Source: an uncultured SAR116 cluster alpha proteobacterium | GTDB taxonomy: Bacteria; Pseudomonadota; Alphaproteobacteria; Puniceispirillales; Marisalimonadaceae | Direction: 5' to 3' | DNA: 64,000 nt | Assembly: GCA_902623995.1 (NCBI GenBank) | Contig: CACNWE010000008.1 | Coordinates: 1-64,000, forward strand | Shown: positions 2,366 through 34,185 of the stretch, piece after piece | How positions within the stretch are numbered: position 1 is the first letter of the stretch | Layout of the letters: each line of letters begins with the position of its first letter | The notes under the pieces: model-generated | The model's input: the letters and a program-made list of their open reading frames with translations, nothing else | What the model was told of the DNA's origin: nothing | Database searches by the model: none | Made by a program: the position numbers and the translations under genes

Positions 2366-2786
2366 ACTTCAACTTTAAATATGAACTAAACTCACCTTTA
2401 TTATAAGTGTAACTTATTATATGTGTTTAGGCTCAATTTCCTTCTGTATAAAATCATATCAATAAATTATTTCCGAAGAATTATATACTCATTTCTTTAA
2501 CTTAAGATAAGTCCAAAATAATTGAAATAGTTAAACCTTTTAAAACTAAGAAATATTTTTTTCAATAATGACATACAATATTTTTTTGATAGTACATTGG
2601 TTAGATATTAAGAAAATTGAATGAATTCAATGTTTAAAATGAAACTATTTATAGTTTATTTAAATGAATATCGAAAATTCAAAAAAGTAACCAACTAAAA
2701 ATTTTAAAATAAAGTTTTAACATATTTAAGTCTATCTATCAAATTTACCTTGATTACTAACATAAATCAGGATCTAGTTAAATTTT
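2366..2786. other. Intergenic gap between convergent OGT genes
   Basis: This 420-base stretch is very AT-rich, lies between two convergent genes, and shows no ORF with a ribosome site, no RNA gene and no clear GC-rich hairpin terminator. I see nothing further that I can support in it. Confidence 0.5.
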
Positions 2787-5700: not shown

Positions 5701-7481
5701 CCGTTGGGTAACCGAAATAGTGTTTCACTATGAAAGTCATCTGCTTCTCCAACTGGATCGGCTATCATATCTGTAAAACGGTAGTCAATCGCTGATAGAC
5801 CCGTTGTGTTTGGATACCCAAGCCAAGTGACTTGAATAGGAGCTGGCTTCTGAGCAAATACTAATAATCTGTTATTTGCAGTATGGCCAGCTAAATCAAC
5901 TAGAATGTCAATCTTATCTTTTTTGATTAGCTTAACAACATCAGTATCGGAAATACTAAATATAGGACGCCAATGATCTGATAAGGCCATAAGACGCCTT
6001 GTGGTACCATCAATTGGAGTATTATTATAATAGCAAAACGTTTCAACAACTGAAGCATTATGATGCTCTAAAAGTGGCTCAAAAAAATAAGATACTGAGT
6101 GACTTTTAAAGTCTCCAGAAACATAGCCAATACGTAATTTATCTCCAGAATGTTTAAAATTTTTATAGTCTAACGGAGTCCTTATATCTAATCCACCAAA
6201 TTGTTTCTCAAATTCAAGATGCTCTTCATAAACTTGTGTGAGTGACCACATCCACGAATAGTTTAAAGAAAACAATTTTTGATGATGATATGGATTACTC
6301 TCAGGTTCAAGTTCAACAGACTTGTTAAAGCTTTTTGCAGCATCTTTTAACTTTAAAAAACTCATCAATGTATTACCTAAGTTGCTGTAAGCTCCTGCAT
6401 AATTAGGCTTTAATTTTATTGCAGATAAGTAATTAACTTCAGCATCTGCATACTTACCAAGTCTGAATTGAACAAGTCCTAAATTGTTGTAAGCTTCCGC
6501 AAAATCAGGATTTATTTTTATTGCTTTTTTAAGTTTTTCTTCAGCTTCTTCTAAGAAAGTTAATTCTTTTTGACTAACTCCTAAGTTATTGTAAGCCTCC
6601 GCAAAATTAGGATCAATTCTAATTGTTTTATTGTAACTTTCTATTGCTTCTTTATAATTACCGTATTTATAATATATATTTCCTAAATTATTATGAGCGG
6701 CTGCAAATTCTGGTTCTAAATCTATCGCTTTTTCAATGTGGATTTTGGCTTCTTCTAGTCGATCTACTTCAATTAAAAATTCTCCAAATTTATTATGATA
6801 TTTAGATGAAGAATTTAAATTTATCAATTGTCTATAATATGCTTCGGCTTCTTTAAGTCTTCCTAGATTTTTCAACATAATAGTTAAGTTACTGAGTGTT
6901 TCAAGATCTTTTGGCTCAATATTTATAGCTATTTCAGATGCTGTTACTCCCTCTGAAATTCTGCCTGTTTCACTCATTATGACAGCAAGAGTTTTCCAAG
7001 CAAAAGGATGATTAGGAAATTGTTCGGTAATTGACAGTGCTAACTTTTCAGCTTCTTTGTATTTCTGATTTTGATAAAGTTCAAAAAGTTTTTTAAGTAA
7101 AGAATCAGATGGTGAAAGACTATTGCGTATATTACTTATTTGTTCACTGAGAAACTCAAATTTAGAACTCCAAATACCATTCTGCTTTGCTCTATCAATT
7201 ATAGATTCCGCATCTTTAAAGTTTTTCTCTTTTATAAGCGCCTCTATATAACTTAACCAAAATTTTTCAATCCTTGGGTTAACTTCAACAGCAGTTTTAA
7301 AGAAAGAAATAGCATCCTCGTGATTATTTAAAGATAATTTACAAGTTCCCAAATTATAATTAGCATCTGGGTGTTTAGGATTATTTTTTAATATTGAGCT
7401 ATAAAGCTGCTCTGCTTCTTTAAAATCACCTTTTTTTTGAAAATTTATACCTTTTTCAAGTTTTTCTGATATTGAGTTCAT
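2787..7481 (-). CDS. Giant TPR protein with two O-GlcNAc transferase-like catalytic domains
   Basis: A predicted cytoplasmic protein glycosyltransferase of 1564 residues. The order is TPR block (about 1-400), OGT-type catalytic domain (about 405-816), second TPR block (about 820-1150), and second OGT-type domain (about 1152-1563). Each catalytic domain carries GYVSGDFKSHSVSYFF, GSFNNLAKMT and FNGATTTCEALWMGVPVIT. The two catalytic domains are identical in protein, and by eye in DNA. The usual family member has one such domain and about 700-800 residues. It starts 56 bases downstream of fliD on the same strand, with no promoter of its own visible, so it is probably co-transcribed with fliD. 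This makes flagellin or another flagellar protein a reasonable acceptor (inference). A collapsed or duplicated assembly is the main alternative for the repeat. Confidence 0.85.
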   Translation of the reverse strand: MNSISEKLEKGINFQKKGDFKEAEQLYSSILKNNPKHPDANYNLGTCKLSLNNHEDAISFFKTAVEVNPRIEKFWLSYIEALIKEKNFKDAESIIDRAKQNGIWSSKFEFLSEQISNIRNSLSPSDSLLKKLFELYQNQKYKEAEKLALSITEQFPNHPFAWKTLAVIMSETGRISEGVTASEIAINIEPKDLETLSNLTIMLKNLGRLKEAEAYYRQLINLNSSSKYHNKFGEFLIEVDRLEEAKIHIEKAIDLEPEFAAAHNNLGNIYYKYGNYKEAIESYNKTIRIDPNFAEAYNNLGVSQKELTFLEEAEEKLKKAIKINPDFAEAYNNLGLVQFRLGKYADAEVNYLSAIKLKPNYAGAYSNLGNTLMSFLKLKDAAKSFNKSVELEPESNPYHHQKLFSLNYSWMWSLTQVYEEHLEFEKQFGGLDIRTPLDYKNFKHSGDKLRIGYVSGDFKSHSVSYFFEPLLEHHNASVVETFCYYNNTPIDGTTRRLMALSDHWRPIFSISDTDVVKLIKKDKIDILVDLAGHTANNRLLVFAQKPAPIQVTWLGYPNTTGLSAIDYRFTDMIADPVGEADDFHSETLFRLPNGFQCYKGNENINVNTDLPQNSRGYITFGSFNNLAKMTFEVINVWAKILKAVPNSKLIIKSPKLNTHGQHYIGLFEEEGIAADRIEFHNRVSDKNEHLEFYNKIDICLDTFCFNGATTTCEALWMGVPVITLLGDRHVGRVGASILTNIGLTDFIAQDIDDYVALASKMSNRPEYLKEIRQGLRKQMLSSPLCNGQSFARDVEDSYKDMWKKYLKTPINNDDVSQQNVLVDDIMLPSNIQFRKLVEYYKGDRYEDAEKLALSIIKQFPDHLLSMNILAAVLLKSGKVSEALIAYKNLLEKDPEDSEAFSNLGKIYEILNQLKKAEASYIKAIELKPDYVLVHIKLGNLFLNTSRFKEAVTSYKQALVFDPKSSIALNNLEIALQFKKLIELFQSDKYQDAEQLALSITKQLPNDKLAWKILALIHNRNGKFNDSIKANKFAIKIDPKDAEIYNNLGNTQCKIGRYEEAKKNYKKALSIDPEYIAAYNNLGNVLERLGLLSEAELIQRQAINLKSDFAEPYNNLGNILIKLGKHEEAKLNHNKAISLQKNNNDFYHSKNNSLNYSWMWSLTQVYEEHLEFEKQFGGLDIRTPLDYKNFKHSGDKLRIGYVSGDFKSHSVSYFFEPLLEHHNASVVETFCYYNNTPIDGTTRRLMALSDHWRPIFSISDTDVVKLIKKDKIDILVDLAGHTANNRLLVFAQKPAPIQVTWLGYPNTTGLSAIDYRFTDMIADPVGEADDFHSETLFRLPNGFQCYKGNENINVNTDLPQNSRGYITFGSFNNLAKMTFEVINVWAKILKAVPNSKLIIKSPKLNTHGQHYIGLFEEEGIAADRIEFHNRVSDKNEHLEFYNKIDICLDTFCFNGATTTCEALWMGVPVITLLGDRHVGRVGASILTNIGLTDFIAQDIDDYVALASKMSNRPEYLKEIRQGLRKQMLSSPLCNGQSFARDVEDSYKDMWKKYLKTPINNDDVSE
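2793..4028. repeat. Direct repeat copy 1 (OGT domain 2)
   Basis: This is one copy of a 1236-base direct repeat. Aligned at an offset of 2241 bases it matches 5034-6269 with no difference that I could find by eye. The offset is a multiple of three, so both copies are read in the same frame of one gene. It encodes the C-terminal catalytic domain. Confidence 0.9.
5034..6269. repeat. Direct repeat copy 2 (OGT domain 1)
   Basis: Second copy of the 1236-base repeat at 2793-4028. The match ends sharply on both sides, and the flanking TPR-coding DNA differs. This indicates a recent duplication or gene conversion limited to the catalytic domain. Confidence 0.9.
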
Positions 7482-10299: not shown

Positions 10300-11469
10300 C
10301 TAAAAATCTAATTTTTCTAAAGTATTCATTGCTTCTTTCATATTTAGGTGATGATTCCCAATAAATAAACCATTTTTATCTATCCAATCGGCATTGATTA
10401 ATTCATCCTGAAGTTCTTTATCAAAAAAATCTACTACTTTGTTATTAGCAAAATTTCCAGCTACTATCGGCCTACACTCAAAACCTTTTTTATATAAAAT
10501 ACTCATTAATTGGTCCCTATTTCTATTAGATCCAGGTTTTAGGACAATGCTAAACCCAAACCAACTACTTAAACCAATTTCCTTTTGGGTGTATATGAAA
10601 TCATGCTTTTGCATTTTTTCTAAAAACAATTTTGCATTTTCTATTCTTTGTAATAAAAATTTTGGAAATTTTTTTAATTGTATACTTCCTATTGCACCTG
10701 ACATTTCTAATGGTCTTAAATTATAACCTGGAAGTACAAAGTTAAATGATTCTCTAAATTCGTCATTTGATTTTGGTGCAACATGATTTTCTTTAGGTAA
10801 ATTTCTAGTCCAACCATGAGCTCTTAATGATAAAAGAATATGATATAACTCTTGATCATTTGTAACTACCATACCACCTTCCATAGTAGATATATGATGA
10901 GAAAAGAAAAAACTAAATGTTCCTAATAACCCAATGGTCCCTGTTTTTTTATTTTCAAATTCTGCTCCTAATGACTCACAATTATCTTCAATAAGTGATA
11001 TATCTTTATCCCCAATTATTTTTTTTATTTCTGTAAAATTATTTGGATTACCTAATAAGTTCACAGCTAAAATAACTTTTGTTTTGTTTGAAACTGCTGA
11101 TTTTAATTTTTTTAAATCATAGTTAAGTGTCTCAATATCAATATCTACAAATTTAATTTTTAAGCCATACTGGTATAAAGGGTAGTATGATGTACTCCAA
11201 GAAACAGCTGGAACAATGACTTCATCACCTCTTTTTAGTTTTTTTTTATAATCCTTCGTATAAAAAAGACTAGCTACCATTAAAAGATTTGCTGATGAAC
11301 CTGAGTTCACCATAATTGAATATTTACTTCCAATGTAATTGGAAAACTCTTCCTCAAACTTTTTGACTTTTTTACTCATTGTAAAAAATTTATCTTTAAC
11401 AACTTGTGAAATTGCTTCTATTTCTTCATGATCCCAACTGTCATACGATAATGGAAATTTATTAGACAT
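10300..11469 (-). CDS. DegT/DnrJ-fold PLP enzyme with His for Lys; probable GDP-4-keto-6-deoxymannose 3-dehydratase (ColD-like)
   Basis: A 389-residue sugar-modifying enzyme of the DegT/DnrJ/EryC1 aminotransferase fold. In true aminotransferases a lysine binds PLP in the block SFxxxKxxxxxEGG. Here the block is SFFFSHHISTMEGG, so the lysine position (about residue 191) is histidine. That substitution is the known mark of the 3-dehydratases ColD (GDP-4-keto-6-deoxymannose) and RfbH (CDP sugar). Since gmd lies in the same operon, a GDP-mannose-derived substrate is more likely, giving a 3,6-dideoxy-4-ketohexose. The start overlaps the end of the reductase gene upstream by 8 bases. A perosamine-type transaminase is the alternative, but the missing lysine argues against it. 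Confidence 0.75.
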   Translation of the reverse strand: MSNKFPLSYDSWDHEEIEAISQVVKDKFFTMSKKVKKFEEEFSNYIGSKYSIMVNSGSSANLLMVASLFYTKDYKKKLKRGDEVIVPAVSWSTSYYPLYQYGLKIKFVDIDIETLNYDLKKLKSAVSNKTKVILAVNLLGNPNNFTEIKKIIGDKDISLIEDNCESLGAEFENKKTGTIGLLGTFSFFFSHHISTMEGGMVVTNDQELYHILLSLRAHGWTRNLPKENHVAPKSNDEFRESFNFVLPGYNLRPLEMSGAIGSIQLKKFPKFLLQRIENAKLFLEKMQKHDFIYTQKEIGLSSWFGFSIVLKPGSNRNRDQLMSILYKKGFECRPIVAGNFANNKVVDFFDKELQDELINADWIDKNGLFIGNHHLNMKEAMNTLEKLDF

Positions 11470-12409
11470 TTTTATTACTTTCTAAATAATATTTAATAGT
11501 TTCATCAATACCTTTTTTTAATGAAAATTTGCTTTTCCAGCCAAATTTTTTAAGCTTTCTTGTAGAAACTAATTTTTGTTTTTGACCGATTGGTTTTGAA
11601 ATATCAAAATCGAAGGCACCTCCCCAACCAAAACTTTTTGCCACTATTTTATAATAATCTAAAACCGAATAATCTTTTCCCACACCAACATTCATGACTT
11701 CTGGCATTTCAAAAAAATTTTCAATAGAGTAATATAAACAATCAATAAAATCATTAACGTACATAAATTCTCGTCTTACAGAACCATTACCCCAGATTAT
11801 AACCTTATCTTTATTATTTAGTTTTGCGTTATGAATTTTATTGATTATGTTTGGGAGTAGATGTCCTGAATTAAGACTAAAGTCATCATATTTTCCATAA
11901 AGATTACAAGGAATTATTGTTTTATATTTTAAATCAATATTTTCTTTATTAATATAAGTACACAATTTCTGAACGAAAATTTTAGCAATTGCATAACCTT
12001 CGTTTGTTGGTTCAAGAGGACCTGACAAAATTAAATCTTCTTCAAGAGGAATTTCCATGTTTTTTGGATATACACATGAAGTACTTAAATTAATTAAATG
12101 TTTGATATTTTGTTTTTTTGCTGCCAAGACTATATTTTTGCCTATTTCTGCATTTTCTTGTAAAAAAAGCAAAGGTTCTCTGATGTTTGCTTGAATACCT
12201 CCTACTCTTCCAGCGGCATGTATAATTAAATCAATTTTATTTTTGGATATAAAGGAGTTCACATTATCAAACTCTAATAAATTTAGCTCATTTCTTGTAG
12301 GTGCTATAAGGTGATAATTTTTTGAACGGTCATTTTCAATAAAATTTCTACCTACCATACCTGAACCACCAGTTATTAGCACTTTTTTTTGTCGAAAATT
12401 AATATTCAT
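11462..12409 (-). CDS. GDP-L-fucose synthase / GDP-colitose synthase-like epimerase-reductase
   Basis: A 315-residue short-chain dehydrogenase of the Fcl/ColC family, which epimerises and reduces a GDP-4-keto-deoxysugar with NADPH. The nucleotide-binding loop ITGGSGMVGRNF is at residues 13-24. The catalytic block NLSTSCVYP is followed by YAIAK, giving the Ser/Tyr/Lys set. It sits between gmd and the ColD-like gene, so by context its product is more likely GDP-colitose or a related 3,6-dideoxyhexose than GDP-fucose. Sequence alone does not separate Fcl from ColC. It is probably translated as part of the three-gene operon. Confidence 0.8.
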   Translation of the reverse strand: MNINFRQKKVLITGGSGMVGRNFIENDRSKNYHLIAPTRNELNLLEFDNVNSFISKNKIDLIIHAAGRVGGIQANIREPLLFLQENAEIGKNIVLAAKKQNIKHLINLSTSCVYPKNMEIPLEEDLILSGPLEPTNEGYAIAKIFVQKLCTYINKENIDLKYKTIIPCNLYGKYDDFSLNSGHLLPNIINKIHNAKLNNKDKVIIWGNGSVRREFMYVNDFIDCLYYSIENFFEMPEVMNVGVGKDYSVLDYYKIVAKSFGWGGAFDFDISKPIGQKQKLVSTRKLKKFGWKSKFSLKKGIDETIKYYLESNKNV

Positions 12410-12423
12410 TGGGTTTTCTAATA

Positions 12424-13500
12424 CTAAAATGACTTCAAATCATTTAAATCACTGTCAACCATTTCTGAAACTAGTTGGTCAAATGATGTTTTGGGTTCCC
12501 AACCTAATATTGATTTTGCCTTGGAAGAATCTCCAAGCAAATTTTCAACCTCTGCTGGCCTAAAATATCTTTCGTCTACAACAACAATTGGCTTACCTAT
12601 CCATTTGACTAAGTATTTATTATTTGGCGAAACACTTGCTACAACTCCAATTTCATCTTTACCCTTTCCCGACCAATTAATTACAATGCCTAAATATTTG
12701 GCTACACTGTTAACAAATTCTTTAACTGAATATTGAAAACCTGTTGAAATTACAAAGTCGTCTGGTTTGTCATGTTGAAGAATAAGCCACTGTGCCTCTA
12801 CATAATCTTTAGCATGACCCCAATCACGTTTTGCCGAGAGATTACCTAAATATATTGGCAATTTTGATCCATGAAAAATACTTGCGAAACCTCTTGTTAT
12901 TTTACGTGTTACAAAAGTCTCACCTCTTCTAGGAGACTCATGATTAAATAAAATCCCATTGGATGCAAACATACCATAGGCTTCTCTATAATTTTTTGTA
13001 ATCCAGTGTCCATACAATTTTGCAACACCATATGGACTTCTTGGATGAAAAGGTGTTTCTTCGTTTTGTGGAGACTCCTTTACTAAACCATATAATTCAG
13101 ATGTAGAACTTTGGTAAAACTTTATTTTTTTTTCTAAACCCAAAATCTTTATGGCTTCCAAAATTCTCAATACTCCAATTGCATCTGAATTTGCTGTATA
13201 TTCTGGCTCTTCAAATGAAACAGCAACATGACTTTGTGCAGCTAAATTATATATTTCATCTGGTTTTACCTTAGAAATAATTCCAATTAAAGAGGATGTA
13301 TCTGTCATATCCCCGTGGTGCAATATTAAGTTTTGTTCACTTTCGTGAGGATCTTTAAATAAGTGATCTATCCTTGATGTATTAAATAAAGAGGCTCTTC
13401 TTTTAATTCCATGGACTTCATAATCTTTATTGATTAAAAACTCTGCTAAATAACTACCATCCTGACCAGTAATTCCAGTTATAAGTGCTTTTTTTTTCAT
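12424..13500 (-). CDS. gmd: GDP-mannose 4,6-dehydratase
   Basis: Gmd converts GDP-D-mannose to GDP-4-keto-6-deoxy-D-mannose, the branch point for GDP-fucose, GDP-perosamine and GDP-colitose. The 358 residues are full length for the family. They start with the loop [18 protein letters not shown], followed by the [14 protein letters not shown] block that binds NADP and GDP-mannose. The catalytic YGVAK follows HPRSP. It is the first gene of the gmd/reductase/ColD-like operon (15-base gap, then an overlap). A sigma-54 type site lies upstream, which ties sugar synthesis to flagellar gene expression. Confidence 0.95.
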
Positions 13501-18605: not shown

Positions 18606-21600
18606 TTAAACAACATCTATTAGAGATTGAAACATTTCCTTAGCTGTTTGCAAGATTCGTGCCGAAGCTTGGTAAGCTTGTTGAAATTCAAGTAAATGAG
18701 CTGCTTCTTCATCTAAGTTAACTCCTGCAAACTCACTTTGGCTTGCTTCTGCCGCATCAAGGGTACTAGAAGCTGAGTCCAAAGATAATTTACTTGCTTG
18801 AACGTTTGAACCTACTTTAGCAACCGTTGTATTAAAAATTTCCTGAAAATTACCTTTATTACCACCTGATTTATCTGATCCTTGAAGATTTAAAATATTA
18901 ATTATGTTTCTGTTATCTCCAAAACCATTTTTGTTACTTGAAAAATCAAAACTATTATTGACTATAGTTTCGTCAGAAAATTGAAATTTTGTGTTATTAA
19001 CTTCAAAAACTCTATTAACGTCTAGGATTCTTGATGCAATAGAATGACCAGAAATTTTATCAAAAATTTCCACTTTATTTTTATTTGTTGCATCAACTTT
19101 AATAGTTAATTCAGAGTCAAATTCATTATTTAAATTTTCACTTTCAGTAAATTGATCATATTGTGCACTTATTTTTCTTGCACCACCACCCATAACAATT
19201 GTAATCAAGTCCTCTGGTGGCATATTTGTTAAGCTTATTTTTTCTGCAACAGTGTTTTGAATTGATCCATTTGGTATCTCAACTTTTACTGGTTCTCCAG
19301 AAAATGACGTTACTTTTATTTCGTCACTATCAACTATAGCTCGTACATCTTGAGTTTTAAGACCATACACCTTGCTTGCATTAGGACTTGGATCAATCTT
19401 AAAATTAAGTTTATCAACAGTATAACTTAATGACAATCTACCTACCTTTTTTGTCCCAACTTTTACTGTTCCAGCAGAATTACTTTCAGGTACTATCGAT
19501 TTAATTTGAGTAAAAACCTTTTCTCCTGTAACAAGTACATCTTGACCTTTAGCAGTTAAAACTTCAGTTTGTGAGTTACCAAATTGATCTAAACCAGTTA
19601 TTGTGTATTTTCCTGTGTCATTTCCTGCAGGTTTAATTGTAATAACTTGTGGGTCCATAACTACAGAAGTTGCTTGTACACCAACCTTAATAGTGCTTGT
19701 TGTATTGTTGGCTACGGATATAGATGAAACTTCACTAAAAGAAATTGTGCCAGTTGCAGTCGAATTGTTTGCTCCTGAAATAGTTTCTGTCTTAAACACA
19801 CCATCAGTATCAATACCTGAAATTACAAAAGAATTATTACTTTCATCTCCATTACAAAATATTGTTATTTTACCATTTAAAGCTTTTGAGTTTTTTAAGG
19901 CACCATCGAGAGACAAATTACCTGCTGTAGCTGATTTACTTGTAAATAATCCATCAACATCAGTTGTTGATAAAATACCGTCAGTAATTATACCAACTCC
20001 TGCTGACATTGTATCGTTATATATAGAATCTTCAAGAGTTATGCCTGACGATTCATTCCATGATAAAGTGATTGAAGTGGGTGGTGAACTACTAAGTGCA
20101 GATCCATCACTATTGAAAAACACCGGATCATCACTACTATTAAATCTTATAGTATAATCTTTTTTAACTTCATTTTCTGTTACTTCTATCCCAATAAGAG
20201 GACTTGTAGTAGTTGGTTGAACAACAAAATTTCCAAGCATTGTTGTTGTACCTTCTTTTAAACCAAATGTTTCAGCATTGGCGGTATTTGCAGTGTTGGT
20301 AACTAATTTAAATTGAGCACCTTCGATTGTTCCTTCGGCAGTAGCTATAAGTTCATATCCTGGTGCAGTCCCAATTTCTATATTACCTAGGGTATTTGAT
20401 GCTGGGGTAATTGAGCTGACAGTTTTAAATAAACCTAATGATACTACTGTTTTTCCAGAGTTAGGACCAGAAATAGTTTCAGTTTTACTTAATCCGTCTG
20501 TTCCTATACCAACTATTGTAAAAGAATTATCGCTTTCATTACTTGTTGAAGTTATCGATATCCTTGTACCTAAGGATGAACCAAAAGCAGGTTCAGTTCC
20601 AACATTAATTCCTGTTGCCGCGTCATCAGAAGAAATATTTGTAATTTCTGTAAATAACTTAGTACCCTTAACTGTATTATTATTTACACCTGTAATAGTT
20701 TCTGTTTGGTCATTGCCGTCTAAATCTTTGCCAGTTATAGTAAAAGTAACAGATGCATTATCAGATGTGCTTGAGATACTTACTGTGGATTTCAAATTAG
20801 TGGCTGATCCAGAGCTTGTTTGAGCTCCATCAAGCGTAAAAACACCTGAACTTCCAATTGTTTCATTATCAACAAGACCATCACTATCTGATGATACTGA
20901 ATTTAAACCATTTATAATTAATTCTGTTGATGCTGTCCCAGTTTGGCTCGTAGCAATTAAATTTGGTATATTTTCTGATGTACCATTAAATCGTGCTTTA
21001 ATTCTATTTGTTTCAGGACCCTCAACAAGCAGTTCTCCAGAAGCCATTTTAAGAGTATAGACTTGTCCTTCAAAACTTAAATCTACTGATTGTCCATCTA
21101 TAGGTAAGGCGTTTATAACTTTACTTTTTATTTGAACAGTTGGAGTTTCAGATCTCAATGATGTAAGTAGCGCCGTAGATATTTCTTTTTGGGTATCTAT
21201 ATTTAATGCATTTGCATCAATTGTAGTATTCCAATTTCCATCAGCTGCTTCTGTACCTATCCGTATTTTACCATTATAGGAAGTTCCCGACGCATTTATG
21301 GACGTCACTGTTTTAAAAATGTTAGAACTAGTAACTATACCACCATTAGATCCAGTAATGGGTTCTGTTATAACCTTATTGTTTAAATCCGTACCAACAA
21401 TAGTAAAAGTTGTACCACTTGTATCCTCTTGACTCTTAATTTTAATTCTAGCTCCAAGATAGTTGGCTGTTGATAAGACACCATTCATTTCAATTGGATT
21501 ACCAGATGTAAAAGATGTTAATTGAACTAAACTATCATCATCATTTATATCATTATGACCAACTGTTCCAATATTTATATTACCACCCGGTCTTACAGAA

Positions 21601-24600
21601 GAACTAATAGAACTTATGGTAGTAAATTTTGTAGAGCCAACAGCAGTGCCATTATTTACACCACTTATGGTTTCAGTGATAATATTACCGCTTGAATCTT
21701 TACCTGTGACAGTAAATATATTTCCCGTCGCCCCGGCCCCGGTACTGCTCTCATTAGCCGTGCAATATATAGTAACAACAGCATTTAAATTATTAGCATC
21801 TTTTAATTCTCCATCAAGTGTAATAGTTCCCGAAGAACTAGGTCTATTTGACGAGTACAAGCTATCATCATCACTCACGAATAATTTGTAATCTTTTTGA
21901 TTTATGTCAATTCCATATTTAGACAAGCCAACAACAGCCTTTTTACCGTCAGGAGATCCAAGGCTATTATCTAAATCATCAAATATTTCAGGTTTTATAG
22001 TAACAACTTCCCCGGTTTTGTTTCTATTTACGTTCACATAGCCATTTGTCAGAGCATCTTTTATCGCTACATTTGAAACCCCTGAATTTATTTGTGTTGT
22101 AAAAGTTTCACTTGATGTAAATTTTAGTTCACCTTTAATATTGGCCGAACTTTTCTTTGAATTACTTACATCTATTAATAGTCTTGAGTTTCTTTGTGAG
22201 TCATTTTCACTTAATTTTTCAAAATCTTTTCCAAACACCTCCAGAAAAAAGTCAGATGGAGCTGTGATGTTTTTTAAATTAATGTCGTATCCATCCTTAG
22301 ACTCAATGATTATTTTCTTAAAATCTCCAGTAACTACAGCTAATAAACCTGTCTGAGAAGAATACTCATTAATTCTTTTTGCAAGTGCTGAGATGTCGCT
22401 TGCATCTATACTTGCATTTATTGAGACTGCTTCTGAATTTTTTCCTTTTAAATCAAATGTTATAGAACCACTAACTCCATCATTAAAAGGACCAAGCAAA
22501 ACTTTTGTATTCGCTGATACATTTACCCCAGTACCCGCTAACTCTGTGTTTAATTTATTTGCTAAATAGTAGGCACTAGTACCCACAGGTACATTTGTAG
22601 TTTTTTCTATGTTGTTATTATTAATGACTTTAAGAGAATATCCAATCGCTTCTGTCCCGATAGTCACCTTACCAGCTGAATCACCATCTATACTTATATT
22701 TCTAACTTTACTAAAAACTTTACTACCAACAACAGTAGTAGCATTACCACCAGGAATAGTTTCAGTTTGATATAACCCATCTAAGTCGTAACCTGTAACA
22801 GTAAATGTTCTTCCTGATTCATCTTTCTCACATGCAATTGAAATATATGAATTAAGTTCTTTTGAATGTATTTTTGTTCCATCAAGTGTTATTATTCCAG
22901 AGGAAAAATTTTTTATTGAAGCGCCATTTGCGTGCGCTGTTGCAGTAGACGTAAGTGTATTTACTGTTGTTCCCCTAGTTACACCAGTAAAAGATGTAGC
23001 TGTGATACCAGTATAAGTCACATATTCTGGTCCAATTAATAATGTACCAGCTTCAGGAAAACCAGTTGTACTTGTGACATTAAAGGTTGTAGCCGTTGGG
23101 TCTATTGCTTGAGAAATGCCAGTATTTCTATCATGTTTTGCAGCTGTTGTACTACTTGTTGCTCTTGTTACCCCATTAAAAGTTGTTCCTGTCTTACTTG
23201 TGTATGTAAAAAGCTCGTCACCAATTTTAATAGCACCAACAGAGTCAAATGCTGAAGTGTTTTCTACAGTTATTGTTCCTGAGCCAGACATGGTGTCACC
23301 ACTTCCGATAACTAAAAAAACATCAACGCCATGTGCATGATCTGCAGCAGTACTACCTTCTTTAGCCCTGGTTACACCAGTTAGATTATTTCCACTTACA
23401 CCTGTATATGTGAAATATTCTGAACCAATTTTAATTGTTCCTCCGGTGCTAGGAAAACTTGTAGCATTATCAAGAGGTATTTGGGTAACAGCGCTAGTAC
23501 CTAATGTTCCACCAGAGTTGTTGTAAGTTGATTCTGCACCTCTTACTGTGGTTGCAGCAGTATAATTTAATGATGTTTCTGTTAGTGTAGTTTCAATCAA
23601 CGATAGAGTCTTGGAAGTTAACAAGCCATCCATATCTGTTTCTTGTTTATTATAACTAAGGTTTGATCCAAAACTGCTTGTAAAATCACCCTCAGCTGTT
23701 TTTCTATTTGAGTTAATCCCTCTATAATTATTATTTAAATAATCATTTCTATATTCAGCACTTTCAAAAAACCCATTTTCAGCTTTTATTAATGAAGCTA
23801 TTTGAGTTGCGTTAAGTGAAGTGCCAGACACGTGTCGTCCATCCCTGGTAAAAACTTGTAAGTTACTTGCAGCAGCTTCATCTGTTGTCAAATTTGAAAT
23901 AGATGGGCTAAAGGAATTACCTCTGGATAAAATAGAAGAACTCGAAATATCATATGAAGAAGAGGAAATGGTAAGATAGCCATTTGATCCAGTGGCAAAC
24001 AAACCTAATTTTCTAAAATCATGTTGACTTTTTCCATCTAACATCAAACCAGAGTTAAGTAGATTAGCAAATTCTTTTACGGTTTTAATACCATCTCCGG
24101 GGTCTGTAGCTGCTGAATTTATTATAATTTCTCTATTATCAGTATCATCACTAAGTTTAATATTGAAGGATGAAAATCCCTTAATATCTGCATCAGAAAT
24201 AGTAAAAGTCGCAGATGATTGATTTCTTAGTGAATTTAAATTTATTGATTTAGTAGATGAAGGGATTGTTATTATTGGACCGTCTTTTAAAAAAGATGTA
24301 GCAACTAATGGATTTGTACTAGAGGTAAAAACTTTATTGATACTCGGTGGGTGATCTATTTCAGTTTGAGTTGTTGAACCTATAATGTTTAATTCAACAT
24401 TCCCAACATTAGCGGCATTTTTTGAAATTAAACTTTTTGAAGCAGCTGCAAAATCTTCAGGATTTTGAAGATGAAATTTCATAGCACCAGCTTTTGTTAA
24501 CGTTGGTGAAATTTGAAAACCATCACCATCTTTTGGCTGTCCAATTATTTCAATTTGATATCCTTCAAAATTAATTTTATTTCCTGTTGCTGTAGATATA

Positions 24601-25730
24601 CCTTTTGAGTCTCTTATTTCCCAATTGTTGTTTATTTTTGAATAATTTACTAAAATTTTCTCTTGAATAATTTTACTTAAATCGCCCTCAATTATATTAA
24701 ATTTCAATTCTGATTTATTGCTGAAATTAGCCTGAGGTAGCATTGAATTTACAGAAAACATAGCTTTCCCAGATTTCCCATTGAGATCAATTCCGAAGGT
24801 TTGAATTTCATTAACATCGTTTGAAAATTGTTCTGCAAGTTTACTTATTTCACTACTTACAGAGTCAACTAAGTTATAAAAGTTTGAAATTCCAAATATT
24901 ATTCCTGAAGAATAAATTCCAGCTGTTTTTTTACCACCTCCTTCATTTACAACTAATGAAACATTTTTATCATCTGAAGTTGAGGTTAGAATTGAACCTT
25001 TACTTCTATTAACTAAAAAAGCTCCATTGCCTGAGTCACCTAATCTTACTATAGCTTCACCTGTATCAGCATAATCTACAGTGAAATTTAAAAGTTTTGA
25101 TAAGTCTATTAACAACTTATCTCTTGCATCTAAAACATCATTTGATGCATCACTATTGCCACTAGTAGCAATTAATTTATTTACTTCGACTAATTGATCT
25201 ATATATAGATTTGCTTCAGTTAATTTTATATCGATTTGCCTTATCGCGTTGGATTTAAAATTTTTAAATTGATCATCATAACTGTTAAAAGCAGAAGCTA
25301 ATGCTTTACCTGCCTCTAATGACACTGCTCTTGCTGAAATACTATCCGGATTACTTGCCACATCTTGAAGGGTATCAAAAAACCGTCCTATAAAAACACC
25401 TAAATCGCTTCCTGAAGGTAATAACATATTTTCTAAGTCGCTTAACTTAGAAACAAAATCATTTAACATTTCATAATCAGATTGTGAGGTTCTTGTTTTA
25501 TCAGCAAGATAAGCATTAAATGATCTACGAACATTAGTAACTCTTACGCCTAAACCAGATTGGTCAGATACATTCGTCGGTCCACCTGTTACGCCTGCCA
25601 CCTCACTAACATCTGCTCTTCTTTTGTTGTATCCATCAGTATTAATATTAGCAATATTCTGGCCAGTTACAGACAAAGCTTGTCTATATGCTTGTACACC
25701 AGTTTTTCCAATTTCAAATAAAGAGGCCAT
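18606..25730 (-). CDS. flgK: Giant flagellar hook-associated protein 1
   Basis: FlgK joins hook to filament. The ends are canonical: an N-terminal GKTGVQAYRQALSVTGQNIANINTDGYNKRR block, and a C-terminal block with VNLDEEAAHLLEFQQAYQASARILQ. The total of 2374 residues is about four times the usual size. The extra length is a central region made largely of two kinds of repeat: three type B modules (about residues 740-940) and seven type A modules (about 940-2100, not all adjacent). Type A modules also occur in FliD, and type B modules in FlgE. The insert should project from the hook-filament junction (inference from FlgK structure). It overlaps the end of the flgJ gene by one base, within the flgG-L operon. 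Confidence 0.93.
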   Translation of the reverse strand: MASLFEIGKTGVQAYRQALSVTGQNIANINTDGYNKRRADVSEVAGVTGGPTNVSDQSGLGVRVTNVRRSFNAYLADKTRTSQSDYEMLNDFVSKLSDLENMLLPSGSDLGVFIGRFFDTLQDVASNPDSISARAVSLEAGKALASAFNSYDDQFKNFKSNAIRQIDIKLTEANLYIDQLVEVNKLIATSGNSDASNDVLDARDKLLIDLSKLLNFTVDYADTGEAIVRLGDSGNGAFLVNRSKGSILTSTSDDKNVSLVVNEGGGKKTAGIYSSGIIFGISNFYNLVDSVSSEISKLAEQFSNDVNEIQTFGIDLNGKSGKAMFSVNSMLPQANFSNKSELKFNIIEGDLSKIIQEKILVNYSKINNNWEIRDSKGISTATGNKINFEGYQIEIIGQPKDGDGFQISPTLTKAGAMKFHLQNPEDFAAASKSLISKNAANVGNVELNIIGSTTQTEIDHPPSINKVFTSSTNPLVATSFLKDGPIITIPSSTKSINLNSLRNQSSATFTISDADIKGFSSFNIKLSDDTDNREIIINSAATDPGDGIKTVKEFANLLNSGLMLDGKSQHDFRKLGLFATGSNGYLTISSSSYDISSSSILSRGNSFSPSISNLTTDEAAASNLQVFTRDGRHVSGTSLNATQIASLIKAENGFFESAEYRNDYLNNNYRGINSNRKTAEGDFTSSFGSNLSYNKQETDMDGLLTSKTLSLIETTLTETSLNYTAATTVRGAESTYNNSGGTLGTSAVTQIPLDNATSFPSTGGTIKIGSEYFTYTGVSGNNLTGVTRAKEGSTAADHAHGVDVFLVIGSGDTMSGSGTITVENTSAFDSVGAIKIGDELFTYTSKTGTTFNGVTRATSSTTAAKHDRNTGISQAIDPTATTFNVTSTTGFPEAGTLLIGPEYVTYTGITATSFTGVTRGTTVNTLTSTATAHANGASIKNFSSGIITLDGTKIHSKELNSYISIACEKDESGRTFTVTGYDLDGLYQTETIPGGNATTVVGSKVFSKVRNISIDGDSAGKVTIGTEAIGYSLKVINNNNIEKTTNVPVGTSAYYLANKLNTELAGTGVNVSANTKVLLGPFNDGVSGSITFDLKGKNSEAVSINASIDASDISALAKRINEYSSQTGLLAVVTGDFKKIIIESKDGYDINLKNITAPSDFFLEVFGKDFEKLSENDSQRNSRLLIDVSNSKKSSANIKGELKFTSSETFTTQINSGVSNVAIKDALTNGYVNVNRNKTGEVVTIKPEIFDDLDNSLGSPDGKKAVVGLSKYGIDINQKDYKLFVSDDDSLYSSNRPSSSGTITLDGELKDANNLNAVVTIYCTANESSTGAGATGNIFTVTGKDSSGNIITETISGVNNGTAVGSTKFTTISSISSSVRPGGNINIGTVGHNDINDDDSLVQLTSFTSGNPIEMNGVLSTANYLGARIKIKSQEDTSGTTFTIVGTDLNNKVITEPITGSNGGIVTSSNIFKTVTSINASGTSYNGKIRIGTEAADGNWNTTIDANALNIDTQKEISTALLTSLRSETPTVQIKSKVINALPIDGQSVDLSFEGQVYTLKMASGELLVEGPETNRIKARFNGTSENIPNLIATSQTGTASTELIINGLNSVSSDSDGLVDNETIGSSGVFTLDGAQTSSGSATNLKSTVSISSTSDNASVTFTITGKDLDGNDQTETITGVNNNTVKGTKLFTEITNISSDDAATGINVGTEPAFGSSLGTRISITSTSNESDNSFTIVGIGTDGLSKTETISGPNSGKTVVSLGLFKTVSSITPASNTLGNIEIGTAPGYELIATAEGTIEGAQFKLVTNTANTANAETFGLKEGTTTMLGNFVVQPTTTSPLIGIEVTENEVKKDYTIRFNSSDDPVFFNSDGSALSSSPPTSITLSWNESSGITLEDSIYNDTMSAGVGIITDGILSTTDVDGLFTSKSATAGNLSLDGALKNSKALNGKITIFCNGDESNNSFVISGIDTDGVFKTETISGANNSTATGTISFSEVSSISVANNTTSTIKVGVQATSVVMDPQVITIKPAGNDTGKYTITGLDQFGNSQTEVLTAKGQDVLVTGEKVFTQIKSIVPESNSAGTVKVGTKKVGRLSLSYTVDKLNFKIDPSPNASKVYGLKTQDVRAIVDSDEIKVTSFSGEPVKVEIPNGSIQNTVAEKISLTNMPPEDLITIVMGGGARKISAQYDQFTESENLNNEFDSELTIKVDATNKNKVEIFDKISGHSIASRILDVNRVFEVNNTKFQFSDETIVNNSFDFSSNKNGFGDNRNIINILNLQGSDKSGGNKGNFQEIFNTTVAKVGSNVQASKLSLDSASSTLDAAEASQSEFAGVNLDEEAAHLLEFQQAYQASARILQTAKEMFQSLIDVV
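19440..22905 (-). repeat. Type A module repeats inside flgK (7 copies)
   Basis: Seven units of roughly 75-90 residues, at about 22640-22905, 21560-21840, 21240-21510, 20585-20860, 20355-20580, 19675-19930 and 19440-19660. Each has L-D/N-G, then TFTITGTDxxGNxxTETITG, then an F-x-x-[IV]-x-[SN]-I segment and a final [IV]-x-[IV]-G-T. Units are diverged from each other. Coordinates are approximate. Confidence 0.75.
22910..23510 (-). repeat. Type B module repeats inside flgK (3 copies)
   Basis: Three units of about 60 residues. Each has a Thr/Ser-rich strand, SFPxxGTIxIGSExxxYTG, SFTGVTRG and then T-x-A-x-H. The same unit occurs four times in FlgE at 31135-32115. Confidence 0.75.
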
Positions 25731-29520: not shown

Positions 29521-32500
29521 TTATGTTCTAATTTGAATTATAGCTTGCGTTAGACTTGTATTTGTCTCAATTGTCTTAGCGTTAGCTTGGAAGTTTCTTT
29601 GTGCAGTAATCAAGTTAACTAATTCTTCAGTAATATCAACGTTAGATCTTTCTAAAGAACCAGATAAAATCGTTCCATAACCATCCGCACCAGCTTCTCC
29701 AACTGCTGCTACACCAGAAACTGAGGTTTCAACATAAGTTGCATTACCAATTTGTTTTAATCCATTTTGGTTGTTAAAATTAACCATCACTAGTCGTCCA
29801 AGTGCAATATTCAGACCGTTAGTATAGTTTGCACTTACCAATCCGTTTGCAGCAATATCTAAGCCATCTAATTTACCAACAGTTTGTCCATCTTGTGTAA
29901 CAGTTCTAACGTTGAAATCAGATGCAAATTGTGTTGATCCGTCAAAGTCTAAATCTAAGTCAATTGACAAGGCATTAGTACCAGCGGCTGCGTCTGCAGC
30001 AAAATCACCTTTATAATTAACTTTTTGAGTCGGACTTAATAAGTTACCTTGAGTATCAAAAGTCAATTCACCAGGTCTTAAAAAAACCTTCGCAAAAGTA
30101 CCATCCGTAGTAGGTGTCCAAGCATTATCTGGAGCAAGTGTTGTAGTATTACCTGCATCATTAACATACAATGATTGTCCAGTATCTGATTTAGCAATTG
30201 TATTGGCCATATTAACAAATGAAGGTGTTGTTCCTGTTACTAATTCAAGATCATCTAATCCCATACGAGCACTTGCAGAAACAAAGATTTTACTGTTCAA
30301 ACCTGTTGTACCAGTAGTAAATGTGAATGAGTTACTAGTAGTATTATATACAACTGTTACACCATTAACCGTGTTACCTGCTAGGTCTTCCATTTGATTA
30401 ATTCTTGACTGAAGCGCTGTTGCAAGTGATGTTCCGTTATATACTCCTTCAGGCACTTTAATAGCTGCTGTAATATCATTAACGTTTACAACAAAGATTG
30501 TCTCTTCTGCAGCATCTGATAGGAAAAAATCTTCAGATAAGTCTTCATTTGAAGTTTTTCCATTTAAGACAGCAGGTTCAGATTGTAAGCCTTTTCCAGC
30601 TGTATCCGCTGTAACTGTCGTAATTGCATTTGTAGCGTTAATACCTAATAGAGCACTTGTGCCACCAGTACCTGTTGCAGAAGCAGTAGCAACACCATCA
30701 ACAATTGCAAGTCTACCAATCTCTATGTTGGATGATGGTTGACCAGAATCTCCAACACCAACAGCAGAATTTGCAGGAATATTTTCACCAGTTGATCCGC
30801 TTGCAATACTGAATTTTCTTGTAAGGTTGTTATATGATACCTCTACTCCAAAAGCTTGCTGTGTATCCGCAGCAATCTGGTCACCAGTAAAAAGCACAGA
30901 TTCAGCTTTTAAAACTGCACCACCACCAATGTTTGAGGATGCTTTATTACTTAATGTCTTAAGACCTATAGCATTGGCTTGATTACCCTCTCCAGGCCCA
31001 AAAGCAGAGAAAGAAAACATTTTACTCGGTGTAGAAGTTCCTATTTTAGAAGGAATTCCTTGCAGGGTAAAATTTTGTCCAGAAATATCATAGCCAATTT
31101 TTAATGCAGGATCATTTTCATCGACCCAATCATCGGTTACAGATATATCTTGGAAAATTGCAACATTATTAGCATGTTGTACATCTGATGTACCGCCAGC
31201 ACCTCTTGTTAATCCTGTAAAAGAAGTTGCAGTTTTACCTGTATAATGGATTAATTCATTATTAATTCTTATGTAACCATTATCTTCAAATCCTGATGTA
31301 TCATCTACCGTTAGGGTTGTAGCACCTTGTAAAAAATTACCAGCATCATCAACATTAGTTGTCCTAGTTTCCATTCCAAGAGTTTCTACGCTCTCAACTA
31401 AACTAACCTCAGGTAACACTATAATGTCTACATTATCGTTATGTATAGCTGCTGTTGTTCCATTGACACCTCTAGTACAACCAGTAAAGACATTTTCACT
31501 ATTAATTACGGCTAAACCCGTATAACTTATTTGTTCAGAACCTATTAATATAGTTCCTTCACTTGGTAATGAAGTTCCGGCTGCCACGGTATCATAAGCA
31601 ATTGTAGTTGCAGTAGCAGATATGTTTGAAGTGTTGTCTACCTTAGCTTTGGAACTTGTAAAAGTTGATGTATTATCAACGCCTCTTGTTATTCCAGTGA
31701 AGGAAGTTGCAGTTTTACCTGTATAATTCATTTTTTCTGTACCAACTAAAATAGTTCCAGTATCAGGAAATCCATTTGTTGATCCAACGTTTAATGTTCC
31801 ACCTGTAAGAGCAGGCGTTGGAGTTGAGGTTTCTACTTGAGCTGCAGTAACTGTGTTTCTCAATTCGTCCTTGAAACCACTAAAAATACCATTAGTAAAT
31901 GTTTTTAAAGTAATTGTAGTATCATCAGTATGAGCCGAAAGAGATTGTGTGGAAATAGACCCAGAAGCCGTAAAAGAGGTTGATGTTTTACCATCATATT
32001 CAAATGTATCTGATCCAATTATAAGAGTGCCAGAGTCTGGAAAGCCTGAGGTACTATCGACATTTATTGAAGTAGTGTTACCTGAAGATATAGCACCATT
32101 TATAAGAGTATCAGGTCGCATCACTTCTTTGTTTAAATAAGCATGTTTATTTAATTCTTTAATAACAATTCTTTTACTTCCAAAATGTTGTGTTTGCCCG
32201 TCAAAAACATTTGTGCCACCCTCAAAATAAGCGTCAACATCCTTTGATACTGTATGAAGAACCTTAATTTTAGTGTCAGTAATATTGATAGCTGCGGTAG
32301 AGTCAGATTTTAGATTTAAAAATTTGTTACCATTTGCATCTGTGCCAGCACTTGATACAGAAAATTTAGCTCCATTATATTTAAGATTATTTACAGTTGA
32401 TGTTGTAGTATCAAATTCGCCAGCTATATGGACCTCAGTTGGAAAAGTTGTAGAACTAATTGTGTTGTCAGGGTCATTTATGAAAACTTTAAGAGTTCCA

Positions 32501-34185
32501 CTTGCATCCTGTACCATTGTATTACCACTTACAGCTTTTACATCTAAGGCCTTATCAAATACCTTTAATTCTGGAGATGAGTTATAATAACTATGAAGTA
32601 AAAATTTAGTTTCATCAGTAGCTGCTTGTTCATTAGTTAGATCTGTAGAAGGATGCTTATAATTAAAACTTAAAACTTCAGTTTCTTTTACTGCTCCTGC
32701 CATTTTTAAACCAGTACCTCTTGCAAAAAGAGAAGAACTTACTCCATAAGTAGCAGAATTATTAGTCGCACCATCTGCAGAAACAGCTGCTCTGTTCAAT
32801 GAATCATTAATTCTTAATTGAGCATGTGCTAAAAATTGCTCTCTTTCAAAATTTGGAGATGCTACATTTTCAATACCATTTGTGGAAGAAAACAAATCTT
32901 CAGTAACAAAACTGTCCTGCATCAAATCAACATTAATTGCTGTTAAAGTTTGAATTTCATCATTATTATCAAGCTGGTTAAACTGGATTGAAAAACTACC
33001 GTCAGTCACAGGATCAATAGCCAATTTTGCATCATCTGATAATCCTGCATTGATGGCTCTTTGAACTTCAGAAGCAAGACTAGTTGCAGTATAGGTGCCA
33101 GGTCTAATATCTATACTTTTGAAGCTTGCACTACCAGTTGTGTCATCAACACGAACTGTCAAGAAATCTTTACCCCAATAGGTAGATTTATTCAATGTAG
33201 GGTTGGCTTCATATGTAGTATAGTATTGTAATGGATCAGTTACAACTGTTATGGAAGGTGCAGTAGCAGTGAACGCTGCATCTTCTAGAACTGCTGACTC
33301 AACAGTGGCAGACTTTGAAACAGTTTTATTTGAAAGGTCGTCAAGAAAAAATAATGGTTGTGTTTGGGCAACTGAAATAATCTGTGGTTTTTCATTTATT
33401 GGAATAATTTGACCAAAACGGTCAACAACTAATGTCTGTCCTGTTGGTGAGATAGCCTCTGTCAAAGATGGTTCAACTTCTCTTCCATCAACGATAAATT
33501 TGGTTTGATATTTATGTGTTACATTGTCCCCTGATGCAGCCTGAGTTTTAATAAAAAAAGCAGTTGCAATTACTGGATTACCCAAATTATCAAAAATTGT
33601 TACAGAAGTTGATGAATTAAAAGTTGCAGGATTTTTGGGGTCGAAATCTGCAGCTGACTCAAAAACTGTTGATGAAGCAGGTAAGTTTACAGCTAATTCA
33701 AGATTATCTGTTTTCTTAGCTTCACCTGCTTCTAATTCTAATTTTAGTGGTTTAGCGTCAGCAATTTCACCACCTTGAACAGATCCATCGTCAGATACAG
33801 GTAACGCAAGAACAAACTGACCTGCTGAGTCAACAACAAATCTGTCGTTGTTAACTGAAAATGAACCGTTTCTTGTATAAACAGTTTGGTTAGTAGTTAA
33901 TGAAGGTTTTAGTGCAAAGAACCCTTGCCCTGATATAGCCATATCCAAAGCATTAAGGGATGAAGATACGTTTCCTTGAGTAAATTGTTGTTTAATACCT
34001 TTCAAAATTGTTCCTGATCCAATGGATGATGATGCATTTTGGAGAGGAGATGTAGCAAAAATATCACCAAATTCAGCCTTACTTCTTTTATAACCTGTCG
34101 TTGCGACGTTAGCGATATTATTTGAAGTAGCTGAAATATCTGCTTGTGATCCGTTTAGTCCTGTAAGAGCGGTGTAAAATGACAT
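29521..34185 (-). CDS. flgE: Giant flagellar hook protein
   Basis: FlgE polymerises into the hook. Ends are canonical: MSFYTALTGLNGSQADISATSNNIANVATTGYKRSKAEF at the start and LERSNVDITEELVNLITAQRNFQANAKTIETNTSL at the end. The core LDMAISGQGFFALKP is also present. At 1554 residues it is about three times the usual size. The excess is a long central region containing four type B modules (about residues 690-1017) plus further Ser/Thr-rich sequence. A second, short hook-like gene lies at 45800, so which protein forms the bulk of the hook is open. It lies 33 bases downstream of flgD. Confidence 0.93.
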   Translation of the reverse strand: MSFYTALTGLNGSQADISATSNNIANVATTGYKRSKAEFGDIFATSPLQNASSSIGSGTILKGIKQQFTQGNVSSSLNALDMAISGQGFFALKPSLTTNQTVYTRNGSFSVNNDRFVVDSAGQFVLALPVSDDGSVQGGEIADAKPLKLELEAGEAKKTDNLELAVNLPASSTVFESAADFDPKNPATFNSSTSVTIFDNLGNPVIATAFFIKTQAASGDNVTHKYQTKFIVDGREVEPSLTEAISPTGQTLVVDRFGQIIPINEKPQIISVAQTQPLFFLDDLSNKTVSKSATVESAVLEDAAFTATAPSITVVTDPLQYYTTYEANPTLNKSTYWGKDFLTVRVDDTTGSASFKSIDIRPGTYTATSLASEVQRAINAGLSDDAKLAIDPVTDGSFSIQFNQLDNNDEIQTLTAINVDLMQDSFVTEDLFSSTNGIENVASPNFEREQFLAHAQLRINDSLNRAAVSADGATNNSATYGVSSSLFARGTGLKMAGAVKETEVLSFNYKHPSTDLTNEQAATDETKFLLHSYYNSSPELKVFDKALDVKAVSGNTMVQDASGTLKVFINDPDNTISSTTFPTEVHIAGEFDTTTSTVNNLKYNGAKFSVSSAGTDANGNKFLNLKSDSTAAINITDTKIKVLHTVSKDVDAYFEGGTNVFDGQTQHFGSKRIVIKELNKHAYLNKEVMRPDTLINGAISSGNTTSINVDSTSGFPDSGTLIIGSDTFEYDGKTSTSFTASGSISTQSLSAHTDDTTITLKTFTNGIFSGFKDELRNTVTAAQVETSTPTPALTGGTLNVGSTNGFPDTGTILVGTEKMNYTGKTATSFTGITRGVDNTSTFTSSKAKVDNTSNISATATTIAYDTVAAGTSLPSEGTILIGSEQISYTGLAVINSENVFTGCTRGVNGTTAAIHNDNVDIIVLPEVSLVESVETLGMETRTTNVDDAGNFLQGATTLTVDDTSGFEDNGYIRINNELIHYTGKTATSFTGLTRGAGGTSDVQHANNVAIFQDISVTDDWVDENDPALKIGYDISGQNFTLQGIPSKIGTSTPSKMFSFSAFGPGEGNQANAIGLKTLSNKASSNIGGGAVLKAESVLFTGDQIAADTQQAFGVEVSYNNLTRKFSIASGSTGENIPANSAVGVGDSGQPSSNIEIGRLAIVDGVATASATGTGGTSALLGINATNAITTVTADTAGKGLQSEPAVLNGKTSNEDLSEDFFLSDAAEETIFVVNVNDITAAIKVPEGVYNGTSLATALQSRINQMEDLAGNTVNGVTVVYNTTSNSFTFTTGTTGLNSKIFVSASARMGLDDLELVTGTTPSFVNMANTIAKSDTGQSLYVNDAGNTTTLAPDNAWTPTTDGTFAKVFLRPGELTFDTQGNLLSPTQKVNYKGDFAADAAAGTNALSIDLDLDFDGSTQFASDFNVRTVTQDGQTVGKLDGLDIAANGLVSANYTNGLNIALGRLVMVNFNNQNGLKQIGNATYVETSVSGVAAVGEAGADGYGTILSGSLERSNVDITEELVNLITAQRNFQANAKTIETNTSLTQAIIQIRT
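31135..32115 (-). repeat. Type B module repeats inside flgE (4 copies)
   Basis: Four units of about 60-85 residues carrying the pattern GTIxIGSExxxYTGKTATSF followed by TG[VIL]TRG and a T-x-x-x-H segment. The same unit occurs in FlgK at 22910-23510. Coordinates are approximate. Confidence 0.75.

Follow-up and report, generated by a model that had tools for sequence, protein, structure and literature searches.

The window, a 64,000-nt stretch of DNA, comes from a SAR116 alphaproteobacterium and harbors the genes for the hook protein FlgE and the hook-filament junction protein FlgK, both of which are part of a flagellar (flg) operon and are not virion genes of a phage or prophage. The two proteins contain copies of one repeat unit, hereafter the B module, located as follows:

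18606..25730, minus strand: flgK, hook-filament junction protein, 2374 aa (Pfam FlgK_D1, Flg_bbr_C)
22917..23108, minus strand: FlgK B module 3 (profile)
23118..23297, minus strand: FlgK B module 2 (profile)
23322..23504, minus strand: FlgK B module 1 (profile)
29521..34185, minus strand: flgE, hook protein, 1554 aa (Pfam FlgE_D2, Flg_bbr_C, LlgE_F_G_D1, Flg_bb_rod)
31159..31338, minus strand: FlgE B module 4, the best family match and the copy whose structure was modelled (profile; model pLDDT 96)
31426..31626, minus strand: FlgE B module 3 (profile)
31639..31818, minus strand: FlgE B module 2 (profile)
31912..32091, minus strand: FlgE B module 1, degenerate (profile)

The module is about 60 residues long, with the consensus GTIxIGxExxxYTGKTxTSFTGxTRG, of which only G and Y are invariant across the seven copies; FlgE module 1 is devoid of the TRG stretch. 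Serine and threonine make up 32% of the B copies versus 22% of the rest of FlgK and 20% of the rest of FlgE. A pattern search of all stop-to-stop window ORFs of at least 60 aa (n = 165) found the core seven times, four times in FlgE and three in FlgK. When only the four FlgE copies were used for the profile, it recovered the three FlgK copies with 31.8–51.1 bits, everything else scoring at most 0.6 bits, and the FlgK-only profile recovered the four FlgE copies with 31.3–53.4 bits; in the controls, the best shuffle reached 8.8 bits (500 shuffles per target) and none of 101 other window ORFs scored higher than 1.7 bits. The reciprocal profiles thus recover exactly the four FlgE and three FlgK copies of the original prediction, at the same coordinates. 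The search against Rfam gave no match anywhere in the window.

It had also been claimed that the unit resembles phage tail and baseplate proteins, which is borne out by PHROG profiles, tblastn and fold, and because all three give phage relatives, the idea of a unit devoid of them fails. FlgE matches PHROG families annotated as virion structural and baseplate wedge proteins, with E-values of 1.1e-25 to 1.4e-18 for its B-module region against phage virion PHROGs, and the FlgK cassette described below, taken alone, matches phage virion PHROGs at 3.5e-18 to 3e-13, whereas FlgK as a whole has no PHROG match at 0.1. FlgK residues 941–2330, the site of the type A repeats, have no PHROG match at 0.1 either, so these repeats are not established as phage-like. 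This blank region, together with the six unmatched FlgE segments from other SAR116 families mentioned below, argues against matches due to composition only. A tblastn search with one B module at E<=10 matched 417 phage records (best 4e-8), chiefly from Synechococcus and Prochlorococcus phages and pelagiphages, whose matched proteins are annotated as structural, tail fibre or baseplate wedge initiator proteins; with the entire FlgE block of 332 residues as the query, no phage record was matched at 1e-5. In IMG/VR, 18 loci with the B module were found, with identity up to 58%. No Pfam family was detected over the FlgK cassette at 0.5, and over the FlgE block only Lysostaphin_N was returned (0.031), below the cut-off.

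The AlphaFold2 model of the B module, predicted from an input alignment of 27 rows with phage rows among them, is compact and all-beta with a pLDDT of 96. It resembles viral predicted structures with TM values up to 0.96 and eight matches at E<=0.001, both sides of the comparison being predictions. Among solved chains, the three top Z scores (9.0, 8.2 and 8.1) belong to phage proteins, with 7 to 8 being typical for unmatched models according to the tool, and the E-values of the Foldseek search against PDB were weak (best 0.3). The PDB search by sequence returned short haemagglutinin stretches (best E 0.7), which were judged to be chance matches, and the model of a 421-residue FlgE stretch had a pLDDT of 60, too poor to reveal how the modules pack. 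The wider family of the B module is found mainly in tailed-phage virion proteins, and it is the module, not the FlgE or FlgK protein, that belongs to this family.

According to the profile search, the B module is present in 46 of the 58 genomes of the window's own family and in one of the 78 genomes from the rest of the order, with none of 384 other genomes in the class sample and seven of 397 other genomes in the phylum sample possessing it. The proteins of five of the seven phylum-sample matches were read, leaving out G536 and G604 (phylum) as well as G104 (order); G-numbers here denote compared genomes, L-numbers denote loci and W the window's genome. Of these five, L164 is identified as a tail-fibre protein by its PHROG match (1.4e-116), L163 and L165 have a Phage-tail_3 match slightly under the cut-off, and L161 and L162 resemble phage tail and sheath proteins by reading, with no profile support outside the B module. 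The opposite reading, in which phages acquired a general bacterial domain of long standing and its flagellar presence is no gain from them, is very improbable. Against it, 417 phage records match at E<=10 while the cellular occurrence is nearly restricted to one SAR116 family, and the five other bacterial proteins include one tail-fibre protein, identified by profile, and two that come close to the cut-off of a phage-tail Pfam family. In its favour, the short-module tree does not root itself, and a gammaproteobacterial bin has a copy next to minor-pilin-like genes. The latter copy (L157:2228-3508) is located in a pilin-like protein, a second surface appendage with the B module, and adjoins two minor-pilin-like genes with pilin-type methylation motifs. 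The direction of transfer was presumably from phage to bacterium.

In FlgE the four modules occupy a variable slot:

31156..32106, minus strand: FlgE variable slot, residues 694–1010, holding four B modules (alignment of 15 same-genus FlgE)

Three or four B modules are found there in each of the 15 same-genus FlgE proteins that extend to the slot (the window's own is one of them), the content being either four modules or three plus other material. In G019 the slot contains an extra module with matches to PHROGs of baseplate wedge and tail-fibre proteins (best 4.8e-12), and in G012 it has a stretch similar to a PHROG annotated as virion structural (5e-5). No B module occurs in the FlgE loci of other SAR116 families (L040-L050). 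Among nine FlgE segments from other SAR116 families, three match phage families in the middle region (best 5.2e-14, 1.9e-13 and 1.6e-8) and six have no phage-family match at 0.01. For L040, L042 and L043, the FlgE middle region resembles other families of phage baseplate, tail-fibre or virion proteins, and the slot therefore seems to collect several kinds of phage-type module. In three pairs with W, dN in the slot is 0.31–0.35 versus 0.000–0.031 in the flanks, approximately ten times higher, with dN/dS of 0.27–0.31. By these substitution rates the slot changes fast, and with dN/dS below 1 they demonstrate neither positive selection nor selection for change. The FlgE B modules are probably old, common to one family, inherited by position and fast-changing.

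In FlgK the modules lie in an insertion, most of which recurs in a flagellin gene on another contig of the window's genome:

22905..23606, minus strand: FlgK insertion, residues 709–942, a leader and three B modules (absent as a block in 14 of 20 same-genus FlgK)
22911..23582, minus strand: cassette common to FlgK and the flagellin at L077:3344-6268 (88.0% DNA identity)

The partner flagellin has 974 aa and three B modules. The cassette edges are abrupt, as identity between FlgK and the flagellin drops to roughly 35–60% outside (60-base windows). Locus L077 contains three adjoining flagellin genes, 203-3283 (1026 aa), 3344-6268 (974 aa) and 7583-9574 (663 aa), with the B cassette only in the 974-aa one. 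The FlgK insertion is present in six of 20 same-genus genomes, a count including G002, which is cut by the contig end in the leader and was added by hand; in G002, two flagellin contigs also stop at the cassette edges. The flagellin cassette is present in W, G014, G003, G020 and G044 and absent in 21 others. The flagellins of G051, G018, G019 and G012 (L116, L120, L122 and L130, respectively), with a length of 857–862 aa, exceed other cassette-free forms by about 100 aa and contain additional sequence, devoid of B modules, close to the cassette site.

Among the genomes that could be judged at both sites, five have the cassette in both genes, one in FlgK only, none in the flagellin only and 12 in neither (Fisher p 0.0007, ignoring kinship). 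As an association this co-occurrence was rejected, since it fails the kinship correction with one supported independent pair on the tree. On the FlgK N-terminal tree three state changes are needed for the insertion, of which the best-supported branches force one.

The original prediction proposed exchange between the genes of one flagellum and a tree of the copies to see whether they group by gene or by position. In the tree of 91 copies, the FlgK and flagellin copies cluster by cassette position (support 100 for position 1 and 97 for position 3) and the FlgE copies cluster by position across species, with phage copies interspersed and FlgE and FlgK copies not being each other's nearest. The tree of these short modules is poorly resolved, does not root itself and does not fix the direction of transfer. 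Exchange thus stands in kind, as the pairing by cassette position demonstrates it for FlgK with the flagellin, and is not supported by the same tree for FlgE with FlgK as the source of the common unit.

In G003, FlgK and the flagellin share tracts of 100% identity with up to 34 consecutive common polymorphic sites (permutation p 0.0002, 28 pairs compared), which is gene conversion in this genome; the same test on the FlgK-flagellin pairs of W and G014 gave no signal (p 0.38 and p 0.53, respectively). In FlgK, dS of the cassette is 0.234 versus 0.454 and 0.481 in the flanks for W-G014 and 0.271 versus 1.031 and 0.829 for W-G003, and in the flagellin it is 0.142 versus 0.236–0.561 for W-G014 and 0.240 versus 0.626–1.639 for W-G003. 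In these comparisons the cassette is younger than the surrounding gene, and the dS values, often well below those of the flanks, indicate that the cassette spread between species. No such drop is seen in FlgK for G003-G020 (0.205 versus 0.200 and 0.081), and the flagellins of W-G044 and G003-G020 show the reverse pattern, the dS of the cassette being near 1 there since the first allele is replaced by a second one. A phage-borne flagellin was considered as a vehicle and rejected: phrog_16088 matches the N-terminal end of the flagellin, and tblastn of that end gave 11 records, none labelled marine and none annotated.

The explanation that we favour, with a probability of about 60% for the account in full, is that SAR116 bacteria took a phage-type module into the outer domains of their axial flagellar proteins, where a cassette was exchanged and recombined and serves as a variable surface display. 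FlgK and one flagellin contain a three-module cassette that was copied between both genes, is homogenised by ongoing conversion in at least one genome and moves among species via recombination. The outer domains of the hook protein and flagellin sit on the organelle surface, and from the known structure of both the B-module regions would be expected to be exposed there. For flagellin, such a location of the outer domains is described in PMC7018530. The modules would then be display units that alter what hook, junction and filament expose, and recombination would vary the surface met by flagellum-binding phages, grazers or surfaces. Such variable display, possibly glycosylated, is the likeliest function.

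It is rather unlikely that the role is structural, with the barrels thickening or bracing hook, junction and filament and the sequence change being drift in tolerant outer domains. The arrangement of the modules as arrays in neighbouring axial proteins of one organelle and the slot dN/dS below 1 agree with it, but the cassette is dispensable in close relatives (absent in 14 of 20 FlgK and from the flagellins of 21 genomes) and relatives exchange the FlgE slot content for unlike modules. Adhesion, in which the modules bind a surface or glycan and so retain a binding role from the phage tail, seems somewhat less likely still: tail-fibre and baseplate proteins are among the phage relatives, yet many of these are annotated as baseplate wedge or virion structural and not as receptor binding, and no binding site was identified in the module.

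With respect to the favoured display function, the threonine-rich face of the B module may bear O-glycans. The window contains the following candidate genes:

104..2365, plus strand: TPR and Glyco_transf_41 protein, possible flagellar glycosyltransferase (Pfam)
2787..7481, minus strand: TPR and Glyco_transf_41 protein adjoining fliD, possible flagellar glycosyltransferase (Pfam)
10300..13500, minus strand: aminotransferase, epimerase and GDP-mannose 4,6-dehydratase-like genes, possible flagellar sugar source (Pfam)

Both large TPR/GT41 proteins are located at the flagellar cluster. Due to these two glycosyltransferases and the sugar-nucleotide genes near fliD, flagellar O-glycosylation, including that of the threonine-rich modules, is plausible.

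The B module is similar to the phage virion module of PHROG 4406, 2885, 708, 22827 and 11439 (virion structural, baseplate wedge and tail fibre) in profile sequence, tandem or repeated use and predicted fold, whereas the SAR116 copies are found in the cellular FlgE, FlgK and flagellin of one flagellum and were passed between two of them. Conserved ends with a variable middle are seen both in the dN of the FlgE slot and in the alignments of FlgE, FlgK and flagellin. Giant flagellins and the hypervariable outer (D2/D3) flagellin regions, as presented in PMC7018530 and PMC6248924, likewise have a long variable insert between conserved ends and block exchange among related genomes; in SAR116, however, the block is a phage-type module array common to FlgK and flagellin, and FlgE has an array related to it. 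Flagellin_IN (PF07196) is comparable as a repeat module of outer flagellar regions and has weak matches elsewhere in the window's FlgK and in the flagellin, but none over the B modules. Gene-conversion cassettes between paralogous surface genes are recognized by identity tracts beyond kinship, such as those between FlgK and the flagellin of G003. Exchangeable outer domains of axial flagellar proteins are thus a known kind, while phage-type modules common to three of these proteins (FlgE, FlgK and flagellin) appear to be new. A literature search, with most subscription papers outside its coverage, found no phage modules in FlgE or FlgK, no module common to FlgE, FlgK and a flagellin, and no FlgK-flagellin conversion.

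The locus is a specific example of how phage-type virion modules occur in the motility organelle of an abundant ocean clade, in which the outer parts of different axial proteins can share one module pool through gene conversion. The origin of new outer flagellar domains thereby becomes testable, as does the idea that in ocean bacteria this surface of the flagellum varies as one whole. A tentative and rather doubtful extension is that SAR116 flagella have a shared recombining coat of phage-type tail modules, with hook, junction and filament changing face together against flagellum-binding phages or grazers; if so, parts of phages would be used against such phages or grazers.

In total, the window's own genome has 11 B copies, comprising the seven in FlgE and FlgK, the three in the 974-aa flagellin and a divergent one in a 464-aa protein. 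The latter (L078:4565-5959, contig C10) has no Pfam match. Many same-genus genomes encode similar proteins of about 450–480 aa with one B copy, which suggests that the divergent copy was inherited.
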